A stretch of DNA of 26,758 nt, taken from IMG/VR virus record IMGVR_UViG_3300046003_007377, positions 1 through 26,758 of that record. One strand, 5' to 3'. This document shows, one piece after another, positions 1,607 through 24,864 of the stretch; within the stretch, counting starts at the first letter, position 1; every line of letters starts with the position of its first letter. The notes beneath the pieces are model-generated. The model saw only the letters and a list, made by a program, of their open reading frames with translations. It was not told the DNA's origin and did not search any database. The position numbers and the translations under genes are program-made. The stretch is from a virus.

Positions 1607-1681
1607 ATCAGTGTGGTGTAGCGGTAACATGCCGGTCTCCAAAACCGTGCGTCCTGGGTTCGAATCCTAGCACTGGTGCCA
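1607..1681 (+). tRNA. tRNA-Trp (anticodon CCA)
   Basis: A full cloverleaf can be drawn by eye. The acceptor stem is ATCAGTG paired with CACTGGT (one T-G wobble). The D arm is GTGT/ACAT around a GG-containing loop. The anticodon arm has the loop CTCCAAA with CCA at 1639-1641 and a mismatch only at pair 27-43. The T arm is CTGGG-TTCGAAT-CCTAG. The discriminator is G, and the 3' CCA is encoded at 1679-1681. It reads UGG codons. The anticodon loop and stem closely match bacterial tRNA-Trp. No other tRNA was found in the window. Confidence 0.95.
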
Positions 1682-1691
1682 AACTTTTTGA

Positions 1692-1719
1692 TTGACAACC
1701 ACCACAGGTGGTATATAAT
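1692..1719 (+). promoter_or_regulatory. sigma70-type promoter of the NAD+ salvage operon
   Basis: A consensus TTGACA (1692-1697) is separated by 16 bp from a consensus TATAAT (1714-1719). It lies directly after the tRNA and 34 bp before the ATG at 1753. It most likely drives both NAD+ salvage genes, which run to the terminator at 4157. Confidence 0.85.
1698..1712. promoter_or_regulatory. Candidate operator palindrome in the promoter spacer
   Basis: ACCACC-ACA-GGTGGT is a perfect 6-bp inverted repeat with a 3-nt centre, filling the spacer between the -35 and -10 boxes. A dimeric repressor bound here would block RNA polymerase. The binding protein is unknown and the regulatory role is inferred from position and symmetry. 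Confidence 0.5.
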
Positions 1720-1752
1720 ATACATATAAATTGTTTCTTAGGAGTTAAGAAC

Positions 1753-2748
1753 ATGAAAACATTAGGCGTATTCATTGGGCGTTTTCAGCCCTTACATGAA
1801 GGTCATATTCAGGCAATCAAGGTTGCCGCTAAGCAAGTAGACCTTCTTCTGGTCCTTATCGGTTCGGCTAATCAGTGCCGTAGCATTAAAAATCCATGGA
1901 CCTATTCAGAGCGAGTTCAGATGTTCCATTCAAAATGGGAACAGATTGACAATCTGATTGACATTCTTCCCCTTAATGACTATCAATACTCCCATACTCA
2001 GTGGATGGCAGATGTACGTGCAAGCGTAGAGTATACCCAAAAGAATTGGGGCATCTATTCACCACCGACTCTTTTTGGTCACACAAAAGATGGTAATGAC
2101 TATCTTAACTGGTTTCCAGATTGGAACTTCAAAAATATTGAAGCCGAATATACAGTAAATGCTACATCTATTCGTGCAAAGATGTTTGCAGAACATGATA
2201 AGCGTATGCCGGAAACGGTCTATCAAGATCATCTGTTCTATAAGAAAGAACAAGAACTGTTTGCAAACTATCCATTCCCTGATACTCTCAACTTCAACTG
2301 CTCTGATGCTGTTCTAGAATGTCAGGGTCATGTTCTTCTAATCCAACGTAAGTTTGCTCCAGGTGCTGGATGTTGGGCTCTACCAGGTGGATTTAGAAAT
2401 AATAAAGAAACTTTTCTTGATTGTGCTATTCGTGAACTTCAAGAAGAAACAAATGTTCGAGTACCAGAAAAAGTTCTTCGTGGCTCTATTGTCAAGACTC
2501 AACTTTTTGATTCACCGTCTCGATCATTTGGCTTGCTAAGGAATACATTAGCAGTCTATATGAGGATCAGTCCAAATCCAGACTATTCTCTACCACGAGC
2601 AAATGGCGCCGATGATGCTGCACTATGTAAATGGGTGCCACTCACTGATGCTCTTAATACATATGAGCTCTATGATGACCATGCTGCTATTATCTCTACT
2701 ATGACTGGTGTTATGCCAATGCCAGCTTTTACCAAACTTAAGAAATAA
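1753..2748 (+). CDS. Bifunctional NMN adenylyltransferase / Nudix hydrolase
   Basis: The 331-residue protein has two domains. Residues 1-165 form a nicotinamide-mononucleotide adenylyltransferase of the NadM type, with the nucleotide-binding GRFQPLHEGH at 9-18 and an ISSTxxR-like NATSIR at 136-141. It makes NAD+ from NMN and ATP. Residues about 180-325 form a Nudix hydrolase whose box spans 213-235 (G-x5-E-x7-REL-x-EE), with all catalytic acidic residues present and only the late Gly replaced by Asn. In bacterial NadM-Nudix enzymes the second domain usually hydrolyses ADP-ribose, and the length fits these two-domain enzymes. The ATG at 1753 is preceded by GGAG at an 8-nt spacing, whereas the longer upstream reading begins inside the promoter. 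It is co-transcribed with the NAMPT gene 17 bp downstream. Confidence 0.92.
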   Translation: MKTLGVFIGRFQPLHEGHIQAIKVAAKQVDLLLVLIGSANQCRSIKNPWTYSERVQMFHSKWEQIDNLIDILPLNDYQYSHTQWMADVRASVEYTQKNWGIYSPPTLFGHTKDGNDYLNWFPDWNFKNIEAEYTVNATSIRAKMFAEHDKRMPETVYQDHLFYKKEQELFANYPFPDTLNFNCSDAVLECQGHVLLIQRKFAPGAGCWALPGGFRNNKETFLDCAIRELQEETNVRVPEKVLRGSIVKTQLFDSPSRSFGLLRNTLAVYMRISPNPDYSLPRANGADDAALCKWVPLTDALNTYELYDDHAAIISTMTGVMPMPAFTKLKK

Positions 2749-2765
2749 GATAAGGAGTTTATCTA

Positions 2766-4151
2766 ATGACTATTCTAAAAAATATTCTACTTAATGTTGA
2801 CAGCTATAAAGTTTCAATGTTTGAACAATACCCAGAAGGGACTGAAATTGTTCACAGCTACATTGAATCACGAGGTGGTGAACATCTAGAAACTTTATTC
2901 TTTGGTCTACAGGGTTTCATTAAAGATTATCTTCTAACGCCGGTGACAATGGCAGACATTGATCTAGCAGAAGAAATTATGCAAGCCCATGGTGAACCAT
3001 TTAATCGTGTTGGTTGGGAATATATTGTTACCAACCACGGTGGTAAACTACCAGTCCATATCCGTGCAGTTCCAGAAGGTACTATTGTTCCTGTAAGTAA
3101 TGTTCTACTTACTATTGAAAATACAGATCCAAATTGTTTTTGGTTGACAACACATTTGGAAACAGCTCTGCTTCGTGCAATTTGGTATCCTACAACTGTA
3201 GCAACCAACAGCAAAGCCATCAAGAATCTAATTAAAGGATTCTTAGAAAAGAATGGTGATCCTGCTGGACTTAGCTTTAAACTTCATGACTTCGGTGCAC
3301 GTGGTGTTTCAAGTCAAGAATCCGCTGGAATTGGTGGTGCTGCGCATCTAATTAATTTCATGGGTACTGATACCATTGCGGGTATTCTTTGGGCTCGTGA
3401 GCATTATAATGCAGGCATTGCTGGTTTCTCTATTCCAGCCGCAGAACACAGCACAATTACTAGTTGGGGTCGCCCATATGAAGTAAAAGCATATGAAAAT
3501 ATGCTGAATAAGTTTGCCAAGCCTGGTGCTATTCTTGCTGTTGTGAGTGATAGTTATGATGTATTCAATGCAGCAGAAAATCTCTGGGGTGGTGAGCTGA
3601 AACAAAAGATCATCGACTCTGGTGCTACTCTGGTTATTCGACCAGATTCTGGTGAACCGGTTGCTGTAAATTGTAAACTTATTCAGCTCCTAGATAAGAA
3701 ATTTGGCTCTACAGTAAATGATAAGGGATACCGAGTCCTGAATAATGTTAGATTAATCCAGGGTGATGGGGTCAATTATAACACAGTCAAGGATATCCTT
3801 ACTGTCTTTGATAATAACGGCTACTCTGCTGATAATATTGCTTTTGGTATGGGTGGTGCTCTTCTTCAACAGGTGAATAGGGATACACAGAAATTTGCAA
3901 TGAAATGCTCTGCTGTGCGAATCGGTAAACATGATTGGAGAAAAGTTCTAAAGGATCCTATTACCGATTCAGGTAAGAAAAGCAAAGCAGGTCTACTTGA
4001 ACTGTGGCGTAAAGATAATAAATTTGCCACAAGTGAAACAACACCTGAATTACTCAATGGTTGGAAACATGGACTTGAAACCGTTTACCTTAATGGTAAA
4101 CTAATCCGTGATATGACTTTTGAGGAAATTAGGAACAATTCAAATAGCTAA
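2766..4151 (+). CDS. nadV: Nicotinamide phosphoribosyltransferase (NAMPT/NadV)
   Basis: The 461-residue enzyme joins nicotinamide and PRPP to give NMN, the substrate of the upstream adenylyltransferase. NAMPT signatures are intact: LHDFGARG at 173-180, the catalytic-His motif AAEHST (His228), VSDSYD at 260-265 and the phosphate-binding RPDSG at 292-296. Length matches bacterial, phage and human family members. The start follows a GGAG ribosome-binding site (AAGGAGTTTATCTA). The gene ends at a strong bidirectional terminator. Together the two genes form a complete nicotinamide-to-NAD+ route. Phage-encoded routes of this type have been reported to restore NAD+ after depletion by host defence systems, and that purpose is inferred here. 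Confidence 0.95.
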   Translation: MTILKNILLNVDSYKVSMFEQYPEGTEIVHSYIESRGGEHLETLFFGLQGFIKDYLLTPVTMADIDLAEEIMQAHGEPFNRVGWEYIVTNHGGKLPVHIRAVPEGTIVPVSNVLLTIENTDPNCFWLTTHLETALLRAIWYPTTVATNSKAIKNLIKGFLEKNGDPAGLSFKLHDFGARGVSSQESAGIGGAAHLINFMGTDTIAGILWAREHYNAGIAGFSIPAAEHSTITSWGRPYEVKAYENMLNKFAKPGAILAVVSDSYDVFNAAENLWGGELKQKIIDSGATLVIRPDSGEPVAVNCKLIQLLDKKFGSTVNDKGYRVLNNVRLIQGDGVNYNTVKDILTVFDNNGYSADNIAFGMGGALLQQVNRDTQKFAMKCSAVRIGKHDWRKVLKDPITDSGKKSKAGLLELWRKDNKFATSETTPELLNGWKHGLETVYLNGKLIRDMTFEEIRNNSNS

Positions 4152-4156
4152 ACTAA

Positions 4157-4187
4157 AAAGGGAGAACCTAGGTTCTCCCTTTATTTT
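4157..4187. terminator. Bidirectional rho-independent terminator
   Basis: Positions 4157-4182 are a perfect 26-bp palindrome (arms AAAGGGAGAACCT / AGGTTCTCCCTTT), followed by T-rich sequence on the + strand and preceded by A-rich sequence. It sits between the converging NAMPT gene and the leftward gene ending at 4187, so it can serve both strands. Confidence 0.9.
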
Positions 4188-5196: not shown

Positions 5197-5737
5197 TATT
5201 GTTTTTCCTCCATATGATCCGTGCAGCCTGTTTTACAATACATACACCAGTCATTAATGACCAACCTTCTTGAGCTTCTATTAGGAGTTGGTCACAAATT
5301 AGAGGCTTGAGATTATACACTAGCTTATCCCATTTACTAAGTTCAATATCCTTGAAGGTTTCATCCTTAGATAGGATAATATCATTTCCAAGCTTAGAGT
5401 CAACATAAGAAAGCACTTCTGGTGTTACAAATTGACTATAGTACTCATCAAATGTGCACCGAGTGTAAAGATAATCACGCCTAATATACATTTTATTATC
5501 CGTTTTAATTATAAGTTTTGATCCAAGATTTGATCCCAGACTTGATCCAAGACTTGAATCCATACTTGATCCCCGACTTGATCCCCGACTTGATCCATGA
5601 CTTGATCCATGACTTGAACCTCGACTTGATCCATGACTTGAACCCTGACTTGAACCCTGACTTGAACCCTGACTTGACCCAAGACTTGCTTCATTAAATT
5701 GGCTCCAGTTCCCAACGTTGGCTGATGACTTGCTCAT
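5177..5737 (-). CDS. Protein with tandem GSSx repeats and a C-terminal domain
   Basis: The 186-residue protein has a short polar N-terminus, then residues 20-74 made of about fourteen tetrapeptides of the form G-S-S-x (x is Gln, His, Arg, Met or Leu), then a folded-looking domain from 75 to the end (rich in Leu, Ile, Asp and Lys, with DEYYSQFV and a Trp-containing C-terminus). No family is recognised. The repeat is likely a flexible linker. The frame extends to 5782, but the Met at 5737 is preferred because the earlier part is deep in the upstream gene. It overlaps that gene by 44 nt. Confidence 0.7.
   Translation of the reverse strand: MSKSSANVGNWSQFNEASLGSSQGSSQGSSQGSSHGSSRGSSHGSSHGSSRGSSRGSSMDSSLGSSLGSNLGSKLIIKTDNKMYIRRDYLYTRCTFDEYYSQFVTPEVLSYVDSKLGNDIILSKDETFKDIELSKWDKLVYNLKPLICDQLLIEAQEGWSLMTGVCIVKQAARIIWRKNNNALGIQ
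5516..5680 (-). repeat. 12-bp tandem repeat array encoding GSSx units
   Basis: The array consists of imperfect 12-bp units (plus strand of the type ACTTGATCCATG or ACTTGAACCCTG), about fourteen in a row. Because the unit is a multiple of three, changes in copy number would lengthen or shorten the linker without breaking the frame. Confidence 0.9.
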
Positions 5738-6972: not shown

Positions 6973-7001
6973 GTTATAATCCAACCTGGGATTAAAGTCA
7001 A
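6973..7001 (-). promoter_or_regulatory. Repeated-type promoter of the SprT-like gene
   Basis: On the minus strand TTGACT (7001-6996), a 17-bp spacer and TATAAC (6978-6973). The spacer contains the inverted repeat AATCC-CAGGTT-GGATT shared with the promoters at 7297 and 8173. The stop codon of the upstream gene lies inside the -35 box. Confidence 0.85.
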
Positions 7002-7273: not shown

Positions 7274-7302
7274 GTTATAATCCAATCTGGGATTAAAGTC
7301 AA
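7274..7302 (-). promoter_or_regulatory. Repeated-type promoter of the 6998-7246 gene
   Basis: On the minus strand TTGACT (7302-7297), a 17-bp spacer with the inverted repeat AATCC-CAGATT-GGATT, and TATAAC (7279-7274). It is almost identical to the promoter at 6973-7001 and is followed by the shared leader GACTATGATGAATGAGG. Confidence 0.85.
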
Positions 7303-8172: not shown

Positions 8173-8201
8173 TTGACTTTAATCCCAGGTTGGATTATAA
8201 A
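8173..8201 (+). promoter_or_regulatory. Repeated-type promoter of the 8226-8893 genes
   Basis: TTGACT (8173-8178), a 17-bp spacer with the inverted repeat AATCC-CAGGTT-GGATT, and TATAAA (8196-8201). The spacer matches the leftward promoter at 6973-7001 base for base, although it drives different genes on the opposite strand. Confidence 0.85.
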
Positions 8202-11938: not shown

Positions 11939-12412
11939 ATGACCTTATGGAAAACTTATAATTTCGACACATCTAATATTGACCGCTATTTTGTAGGCGT
12001 TGATACTATGATGAAAAAAATGGTGGATGGTGCGGCATTTGTCGCCAATACAGCAATGTCTAATTTCCCACCTTACAATATCAAAAAGATTCAAGACAAT
12101 AAGTATGTCATCGAGATGGCTGTTGCTGGATTTGGCAAACAGGATCTTGAGATTACTTTAGAAGATAATAAACTCTTAATTAAGGGTAACACTTCTTTAA
12201 ACACAAAAGATAAAGAGGGAACGCAATATCTATACCAAGGCATTGCTGCACGTAATTTTGCTCGTGCATTCACTCTAGCTGATAATGTTGAGATTCAAAA
12301 TGCTGAACTTATTAATGGCATGCTTCGTGTCTGGCTAGATACCATAACACAAAAACCAAATGTAAAAAATATTGAAGTGGTTGAAAAAACCGAGCAAAAA
12401 ACAAAAGAATAA
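11939..12412 (+). CDS. Hsp20-family small heat-shock protein (IbpA-like)
   Basis: The 157-residue protein contains an alpha-crystallin domain at about residues 38-140, with the IbpA-type pattern YVIEMAVAGF, a LLIKGN strand, RNFARAFTLADNV and the closing NGMLRVWL. The C-terminus is Lys/Glu-rich. Small heat-shock proteins bind unfolding proteins as oligomeric holdases. T4-superfamily phages of environmental bacteria often carry one, possibly for virion assembly or host stress. It starts after a perfect GGAGG site. A short hairpin (ACCT/AGGT) could weakly cover that site. Confidence 0.9.
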   Translation: MTLWKTYNFDTSNIDRYFVGVDTMMKKMVDGAAFVANTAMSNFPPYNIKKIQDNKYVIEMAVAGFGKQDLEITLEDNKLLIKGNTSLNTKDKEGTQYLYQGIAARNFARAFTLADNVEIQNAELINGMLRVWLDTITQKPNVKNIEVVEKTEQKTKE

Positions 12413-17586: not shown

Positions 17587-18943
17587 AGAATATGGTCGCA
17601 AAGTTCTTCCTTATATAAAAGAAGAATATTTTGAAACTTACTCAGACAAAGTATTATTCAATGTTATCAATGCATATGTTGAAAAATATAATAAATTTCC
17701 AAATGAACAAGCTATTAAATTTGATCTCGATTCAATGCAACTTGATGATCGAATTTTTAAAGAATGCAAGGAAAAACTTGGTGAGCTTGAATATGATGCT
17801 ACTAAGGATTTAGAGTGGGTAATTGACAAGACAGAAAAATTCTGTCAAGAGAGAGCAGTATATAATGCGATCATGTCTAGTATTCAAATTCTAGACAATA
17901 AGGATCCAAAGAATAATCGTGGTTCAATCCCAAAGATCCTACAGGATGCTCTAGGTGTAAGCTTTGATACTCACATTGGACATGATTTCTTTGATGATTC
18001 CGATCCTCGCTTTGAATACTATCATAGGACTGAAGATAGAGTCCCATTCCGTATTGATTATCTCAATAAAATTACTAAGGGTGGTCTTCCAAAAAAGACT
18101 CTGAATGTAATTCTTGCAGGACCACATGTTGGTAAATCACTATTCATGTGTTCAACTGCTGCTGGTAATCTTCTTGATGGAAAGAATGTTCTCTACATCA
18201 CAATGGAAATGGCTGAGGAAGAAATTGCTCGGCGTATTGATGCTAATATTCTAGATATTCCCATTGAAGAACTAGATACTATTTCCAAAGAACTCTTTGA
18301 TAAAAAGATAGCTCGAGTCAAGGGTAAGACTTCAGGTAAACTTATTATCAAAGAATATCCAACTTCTACAGCTGGTTCTGCAAACTTCCGTCATCTTTTG
18401 ATGGAACTAAAGCTGAAAAAGAACTTCATTCCTGATATCATTTATATTGATTATCTAAACATCTGTGCAAGTTCAAGATTGAAAATGGGTTCCAATGTCA
18501 ATAGTTATACGTATGTAAAAGCTATTGCTGAAGAATTAAGAGGTCTTGCTGTTGAATTTAATGTTCCAATTGTTTCAGCAACACAAACCACAAGGTCTGG
18601 TTTTGGAAATTCAGATGTTGATATCACTGATACATCAGAGTCTTTTGCTCTTCCAGCAACTGTAGACTTCATGCTTGCTCTAGTAAGTTCTGAAGAACTT
18701 GAAGCGCTAGAACAAATCATGGCTAAACAGTTGAAAAACCGATATACCAATCTACATAAATGCAAGCGCTTTGTTTTAGGGGTTGACAAAATTAAAATGA
18801 AGTTGTATAATGTGGAAGAATCTGCACAAGATCTGGTGGATGATTCACCTGTAATGGACAAAGGAAATTTCGGCGAGAGAGAAAAAGCTACTAACCGAAA
18901 AAAATCTAAGTTTGAACTGCAACAATTTGAGGATTTTAAGTGA
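17543..18943 (+). CDS. Replicative DnaB-like helicase (T4 gp41-like)
   Basis: The 466-residue protein has an N-terminal helical domain (residues 1-140, starting like gp41 with a SNLIFANLINSEEY segment) and a RecA-fold motor. Walker A is AGPHVGKS (192-199), followed by the TMEMAEEEIARR region, Walker B IIYIDYLNI (299-307) and SATQTTRSG near 350. It is the 5'-3' helicase that opens the fork for the phage polymerase and primase. Start and length fit gp41. The C-terminus is charged (REKATNRKKSKFELQQFEDF). The stop overlaps the next gene's ATG by one base. Confidence 0.95.
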   Translation: MSLSNLIFANLINSEEYGRKVLPYIKEEYFETYSDKVLFNVINAYVEKYNKFPNEQAIKFDLDSMQLDDRIFKECKEKLGELEYDATKDLEWVIDKTEKFCQERAVYNAIMSSIQILDNKDPKNNRGSIPKILQDALGVSFDTHIGHDFFDDSDPRFEYYHRTEDRVPFRIDYLNKITKGGLPKKTLNVILAGPHVGKSLFMCSTAAGNLLDGKNVLYITMEMAEEEIARRIDANILDIPIEELDTISKELFDKKIARVKGKTSGKLIIKEYPTSTAGSANFRHLLMELKLKKNFIPDIIYIDYLNICASSRLKMGSNVNSYTYVKAIAEELRGLAVEFNVPIVSATQTTRSGFGNSDVDITDTSESFALPATVDFMLALVSSEELEALEQIMAKQLKNRYTNLHKCKRFVLGVDKIKMKLYNVEESAQDLVDDSPVMDKGNFGEREKATNRKKSKFELQQFEDFK

Positions 18944-24426: not shown

Positions 24427-24864
24427 ATGACGGAATTAGTTGATCAGATGAAAGTTGTGCTAGCTAGCACATTTGCTTTATATCTAAAGACTCATAACTT
24501 TCATTGGAATGTAGAAGGATCTAACTTTGTTCAGTATCACACATATTTTGGCGACTTGTATGGTGAACTCTGGGGTGCAGTTGATACTATAGCTGAACAT
24601 ATCAGAATACTTGGTGTTTATGCACCAGGAAGTTTATTAAGATTCTCACAATTATCAGTTATTGATGATCAAATTAATATTCCAACATCATTAAATATGA
24701 TTAAAGAACTTGAAGCTGATAACAGTAAGCTTAAAAATGAAATAGTAAAAGCTTATTTACTAGCAGAAAAAGCTAATGAAGCCGGTCTTTCCAATTTTCT
24801 ACAGGATAGAATAGACATTCATGCTAAGCACGGATGGTTCCTAAAGTCAATGGGTAAGTCATGA
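24427..24864 (+). CDS. Dps-like ferritin
   Basis: The 145-residue protein matches the Dps family: HNFHWNVEGSNFVQYH (residues 23-38) with the ferroxidase His26 and His38, and VDTIAEHI (52-59) with Asp53 and Glu57. Dps proteins form 12-subunit cages that oxidise iron and protect DNA. The protein is a little shorter than typical Dps and lacks a Lys-rich N-terminal tail, so direct DNA binding is not obvious. It sits in a late operon with prohead-type genes. Inclusion in the virion or protection of packaged DNA is an inference. Confidence 0.85.
   Translation: MTELVDQMKVVLASTFALYLKTHNFHWNVEGSNFVQYHTYFGDLYGELWGAVDTIAEHIRILGVYAPGSLLRFSQLSVIDDQINIPTSLNMIKELEADNSKLKNEIVKAYLLAEKANEAGLSNFLQDRIDIHAKHGWFLKSMGKS

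Follow-up and report, generated by a model that had tools for sequence, protein, structure and literature searches.

Phage-encoded NAD+ salvage has already been described in several systems. A paper in Viruses (2022; PMC9503650) reports that no phage has NadM without also encoding NadV, and that NadM of phages is a Nudix fusion; it holds that the phage pathway counters NAD+ depletion by defences, and that the NadM-type Nudix domain may cleave NAD+ too, an activity treated there as NAD+ limitation. NARP2 (Osterman et al. 2024) is presented, by way of PMC12300627 and PMC11984713, as phage-encoded NAD+ restoration against depleting defences, and the nadV/natV salvage pathway of Vibrio phage KVP40 is given as functional in PMC7139368, which relays Lee et al. 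2017. Among cellular genes, the bacterial NadM proteins of Synechocystis (2qjo) and Francisella (2qjt/2r5w) have the same two-domain architecture as the protein described here. The NARP2 pathway reportedly pairs NadV with an NMN adenylyltransferase, and the Nudix domain of natV is said to have preferred ADP-ribose, NAD+ and NADH.

The locus presented here is a complete example of this known kind—both the fusion and the pairing are familiar. It lies in what we call the window (the whole stretch of DNA analysed), a 26.8-kb virus record with T4-like replication genes recognised by their Pfam domains: a family-B polymerase, nearest to cyanophage polymerases (48%), a UvsX-like recombinase, and a DnaB-like helicase. 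As in NARP2, NadV and an NMN adenylyltransferase are encoded together; however, the window comes from an uncultivated virus. KVP40 likewise has a NAMPT and natV, the same bifunctional fusion, 38.5% identical to the NadM of the window, but its natV is flanked by genes other than nadV, and the stem around its Shine-Dalgarno sequence is merely 3 bp long; in the KVP40 relative CZ01, the nadV and NadM genes lie ~40 kb apart. Acidovorax phage ACP17 (KY979132) shares the fusion and the gene order, with a 13-bp gap and identities of 47% and 56%; in contrast, it belongs to another phage genus and its hairpins (the subject of the later paragraphs) are just 3 and 4 bp. The order nadM then nadV is also found in Xanthomonas phage LucasX, Ruegeria phage V10, BUCT-ZZ01, DSS3_MAL1, and B23, and among 73 distinct viral loci, 41 have nadV at most 120 bp downstream of nadM and 59 have it downstream on the same strand. 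The preliminary description had singled out the pairing in one operon as notable; it is instead the rule in relatives, and in PMC9503650. Taken whole, the locus is probably a NadV/NadM-Nudix salvage operon of the type known from NARP2 and KVP40, serving NAD+ upkeep and bearing hairpins that we propose as control elements.

Positions 1692-4182 read as one transcription unit that runs from a promoter through nadM and nadV to a hairpin terminator. The putative promoter is sigma-70-like (TTGACA-N16-TATAAT, 1692..1719, + strand, 12/12 consensus matches), so that position 1692, where the operon had been taken to start, is the -35 box and holds no start codon. A GTG at 1708 would give a 346-aa version of NadM; we set it aside, as it falls inside the promoter and the ribosome binding site (RBS) favours the ATG at 1753. 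Within the promoter spacer there is an inverted repeat on the + strand, ACCACC-ACA-GGTGGT (1698-1712), which may be a conserved operator; it was seen in the window and, in altered form, in the relative L009. The nadM gene (natV-like) occupies 1753..2748 on the + strand and encodes 331 aa, with an NMN adenylyltransferase domain at residues ~1-150 and a Nudix domain at ~180-320; nadV, a nicotinamide phosphoribosyltransferase gene of the NAMPT family, follows after 17 bases on the same strand (2766..4151, ATG 2766, 461 aa). Downstream lies an intrinsic-terminator-like hairpin, AAAGGGAGAACC-TAGGTTCTCCCTTT (4157..4182, listed on the + strand), that is usable in both directions—an ORF on the - strand ends at 4187.

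Several features around the operon are recorded here as separate observations. Directly upstream is a tRNA-Trp (CCA) gene (1607..1681, + strand; ARAGORN, Rfam tRNA 52 bits), which is adjoined by a DUF2828/DUF7788 protein (47-1420; PHROG 'RNA-binding protein') whose gene likewise precedes nadM in L007-L010, the closest relatives. In two of these relatives ARAGORN calls tRNAs whose anticodons are CTA and TCA (given as Pyl and SeC; L007 2724-2798, L009 2582-2656 and 3637-3708) and which are possible stop-codon suppressors. Elsewhere in the window, near-identical promoter-like units, TTGACTTTAATCCCAG-TTGGATTATAA, occur at 6973-7001, 7274-7302 (- strand) and 8173-8201 (+ strand), and promoter-like matches whose spacer is 17 bases long are in excess (21 vs 7 expected). 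The window also encodes an HSP20-like protein (11939-12412) and a Ferritin/Dps-like protein (24427-24864; Pfam Ferritin 1.4e-19), and contains a 12/36-base tandem repeat at 5518-5688 (14 copies of the 12-base unit) that reads as a GSSxGSS-type repeat in a - strand ORF.

The identity of NadV as a NAMPT-family enzyme is unambiguous by homology. It has the Pfam domains NAMPT_N and NAPRTase, scores 638 bits against PRK09198 (cut-off 405), and matches the PDB entries 7yqo (bacterial NAMPT-like, 8e-165) and human NAMPT (~1e-122). Residues Y14, F176, R179, D202, H228, R292 and D294 are present and invariant in ten phage NadV proteins; they are the equivalents, in the same order, of Y18, F193, R196, D219, H247, R311 and D313 of human NAMPT, among which we take H247, D219, R311 and D313 to be catalytic positions.

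NadM matches Pfam CTP_transf_like (7.6e-13) and NUDIX (5.4e-16), and its residues 4-315 align with 2qjo, so that both domains lie in one chain, end to end with solved members of the family (2qjo 8e-49; 2qjt/2r5w 5e-42). Its best score against NCBIfam PRK05379, the bifunctional NMNAT/Nudix model, is 249.7 bits, under the cut-off of 397; since it falls below the NCBIfam cut-offs of the bacterial models, we call it NadM-like on the strength of its architecture and motifs, and not a PRK05379 equivalog. The nucleotidyltransferase motifs are intact (GRFQPLHEGH, containing HxGH, and NATSIR, with T138 and R141 invariant), as is the Nudix box, G-x5-E-x7-REL-x-EE-x-N-V, in which G213, E219, R227, E228, E231 and E232 are all present and N replaces the final G, a change shared with the solved Francisella enzyme. 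Homology and intact motifs support assigning the Nudix domain to the NAD/ADP-ribose type. Two claims of the preliminary description thus hold: the NAMPT and NMN adenylyltransferase-Nudix genes are present and adjoining on the + strand, with domain and structure matches far beyond chance, and the NMNAT, Nudix and NAMPT domains all retain their catalytic motifs.

From gene identity and intact motifs, we infer the enzyme activities in this phage. NadV is predicted to convert nicotinamide and PRPP to NMN, the N-terminal domain of NadM to adenylate NMN to NAD+, and the Nudix domain to hydrolyse ADP-ribose-like dinucleotides; the likely benefit would be a continued supply of NAD+ while the phage replicates and while NADase defences of the host are active. 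The Nudix domain may also return the carbon of ADP-ribose to the pathway via ribose-5-phosphate and PRPP. A PRPP-synthesis gene between nadM and nadV would back such recycling; however, the inserts in the loci checked are not Prs—relatives carry radical-SAM and deoxyribosyltransferase-like genes (L012), a radical SAM gene (L017), a NADAR gene (B23), or unknown genes. Prs does adjoin nadV in Staphylococcus phage GE1, a phage without NadM. The NADAR domain gene of Synechococcus phage B23 (L005 3255-3785) fits the neighbourhood described in PMC9503650.

The rebuilding of NAD+ from nicotinamide, as first proposed for this locus, is supported by homology and intact motifs, and the accompanying idea of counter-defence, which we find plausible, had already been published (PMC9503650). 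The operon could instead serve phage metabolism, supplying NAD+ for replication in large phages, with the Nudix domain as a house-cleaning enzyme or NAD+ limiter. We think this somewhat improbable as a replacement for counter-defence, although the KVP40 work framed the pathway as salvage (PMC7139368), the Nudix domain regulates NAD+ levels according to PMC9503650, and nadM and nadV share the window with the polymerase, UvsX-like and helicase genes. On the other side, defences that act as NADases are widespread, and PMC12300627 reports that NARP2 counters them; metabolic and counter-defence roles can coexist. The enzyme pair adds one more phage with the known counter-defence and salvage pathway.

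The part of the locus that is worth following lies at the ribosome binding sites, and seems not to have been described: a search of mainly open-access papers brought up nothing relevant on such an element, and an Rfam 15 scan of the window and five loci matched tRNA only, with no match above the gathering score for this hairpin or for the GYRGT hairpin described below, although 17-21 nt may be too short for such a scan. In both genes the Shine-Dalgarno sequence sits in a GGANN pentaloop whose stem is perfectly paired, and this hairpin touches the start codon: ttctta-GGAGT-taagaa before nadM (1735..1751, + strand) and agataa-GGAGT-ttatct before nadV (2748..2764, + strand), the latter starting on the final base of the nadM stop codon. 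Both stems show covariation in relatives. The window hairpins are weak alone (-2.0 kcal/mol for nadM and -2.1 for nadV), and that of nadV is absent from the minimum-energy fold of its 66-nt context. Besides one overlapping gene junction at 18940, nadM and nadV are the only genes of the window with such a hairpin.

Across phages, 67/97 distinct upstream sequences of nadM and 80/93 of nadV have GGANN enclosed by a perfect stem of 5 bp or longer, counts that include related sequences and therefore overstate the number of independent events; shuffles that kept the loop and the composition of each upstream sequence gave ~0.6 hairpins. The stems are also paired and covarying to a degree that shuffling removes: for nadM (39 distinct hairpins), 90.6% of cells are paired vs 49.4% in shuffles, with a covariation score of 0.956 vs 0.190, and for nadV (45 hairpins) the values are 90.4% vs 56.6% and 0.751 vs 0.155. 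Shifting the partner by one base abolishes the covariation signal in both sets. In many nadM hairpins the start codon lies inside the 3' arm; BUCT-ZZ01, read from its sequences, has the hairpin with its register shifted, so that the loop contains AAGGA. The hairpin is very probably real as a conserved RNA structure.

The hairpin is confined almost wholly to the salvage genes. Among other genes with a Shine-Dalgarno sequence in the same phage loci, 32/594 were flagged; reading of the sequences reassigned 19 of these to nadM or nadV, which the motif filter had missed, and a further 11 are small uncharacterised genes in the neighbourhood of the salvage genes, with ten lying upstream of nadM and one between nadM and nadV. 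This leaves 2 unrelated genes and a background of 2/~564 unrelated neighbours. This control, which relied on a simple gene caller, missed nadM and nadV of DSS3_MAL1, for which the evidence is a check of the whole genome: its only annotated genes with a hairpin at the start are nadM and nadV. The controls in the window, in DSS3_MAL1, and in neighbouring genes together rule out the hairpin as a general feature of these phages. In a further set of phages, enlarged by whole-record searches, the hairpin is present in 24/41 with NadM and in 1/19 lacking full-length NadM (the exception is a 43-kb fragment); it is absent in a phage with the NMN adenylyltransferase domain alone (Mx1) and in one with none (a Kayvirus). 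Some phages with NadM also lack it (Rhizobium phage B1VFA and Aeromonas phage AhFM11), and KVP40, CZ01 and ACP17 have stems of 3-4 bp only.

The same kind of element is found in bacteria. The nadM-nadV operons of Variovorax, Lysobacter, Burkholderia and Microbulbifer have the gene order and the kind of RBS hairpin seen in the window, but their stem sequences are unlike those of the window; GC-rich bacteria carry GC-rich stems (e.g., ccgtgag-GGAGC-ctcatgg). A nadV hairpin of at least 5 bp is present in 27/58 bacterial nadV loci with nadM in the locus and in 0/22 without it, and the background in bacterial 20-kb stretches is 2/130 other genes. Fisher values computed on the hairpin counts with and without nadM take no account of phylogeny. 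The dependence holds within genera: Pseudoxanthomonas has the hairpin with nadM (L214) and none without (L217, L219), as do Lysobacter (L236, L243 vs L226, L230) and Luteimonas (L221 vs L231), and in these three genera the strong hairpin sits at nadM, with a nadV stem of 3 bp. Conversely, bacterial nadM genes with no nadV nearby have no hairpin.

What the hairpin does can be stated only tentatively. The reading we put forward, at somewhat less than an even chance, is that of a dedicated element for translational control, with a reader that acts in trans: the GGANN pentaloop hairpin would present or sequester the Shine-Dalgarno sequences of nadM and nadV, and its reader would be tied to the salvage pair, possible candidates being full-length NadM and a protein that senses a metabolite. 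NadM is one guess among several, and NadM alone is weakened as a candidate, since bacterial nadM without nadV nearby lacks the hairpin and the protein by itself therefore does not explain it. On the wider form of this proposal, held with equal reserve, nadM and nadV of bacteria and phages alike would make up a small regulon controlled at translation, in which the NAD+ state switches salvage.

A role outside regulation is rather unlikely: the hairpin may simply display the Shine-Dalgarno sequence efficiently, or may have been inherited with the nadM-nadV operon. The weakness of the window hairpins, which leave the Shine-Dalgarno sequence in the loop, fits such a role, and because the operon is common to bacteria and phages, the hairpin may have travelled with it as one block. 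However, as the stems diverge, each pair shows compensatory changes, the hairpin is nearly absent from unrelated genes, and in many phages the start codon is held in the 3' arm. Explanations based on operon packaging or intergenic position also fail where the genes are far apart—Klebsiella phage phiKp_15 has nadV and nadM ~100 kb apart on opposite strands, both with aacgt-GGAG[T/C]-acgtt, and contig G380 has them ~25 kb apart, each with its hairpin—and these are cases that a trans factor covers.

It is improbable that the hairpin is a site for an endonuclease or a host regulator, such as a GGAG cut of the T4 RegB type or a GGA loop of the CsrA/Rsm type. The GGA in a loop over the Shine-Dalgarno sequence does resemble RegB and CsrA/Rsm sites, but GGAAC is common among nadV loops and GGATT among nadM loops, in place of GGAG, the hosts are very diverse, and the hairpin is limited to two genes, whereas these regulators act on many. 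That the hairpin is an artefact of composition, with the AT-rich flanks of an extended Shine-Dalgarno sequence merely looking self-complementary, is scarcely credible: TAAGGAG-TTTA flanks are common in AT-rich relatives, but the composition-keeping shuffles (0.6 vs 67 and 80), the rarity among Shine-Dalgarno neighbours (2/~564, with similar rates not seen in other genes), and the GC-rich stems of GC-rich bacteria all argue against it.

Two further observations concern the head of the operon in relatives. A second hairpin, absent from the window, lies 30-55 nt upstream of nadM, one per locus, with a stem of ~8 bp and an invariant loop, GYAGT (L011, L012, L014-L019, L021, L026-L028, L045, L055, L063 and others), or the loop variant GYRGT (L047, L052, L056); in 16 distinct sequences 98.4% of cells are paired, with a covariation score of 0.934 vs 0.269 in shuffles. 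The small genes upstream of nadM that bear the RBS hairpin include the phrog_12218 family (~108 aa; L065, L094, L140, L154, L161), 118-aa genes (L098, L168, L200), and a 238-aa repeat-bearing gene (L412), and their hairpins suggest that these genes are part of the operon for NAD+ salvage.

If the trans-read control element is real, the hairpin would be a simple sequence mark for further genes of the NAD+ salvage pathway, and small unknown genes at operon heads, such as phrog_12218, would be marked as NAD-linked. Phages and their hosts would then tune NAD+ salvage at translation, and NAD+ homeostasis during infection would be open to direct testing.
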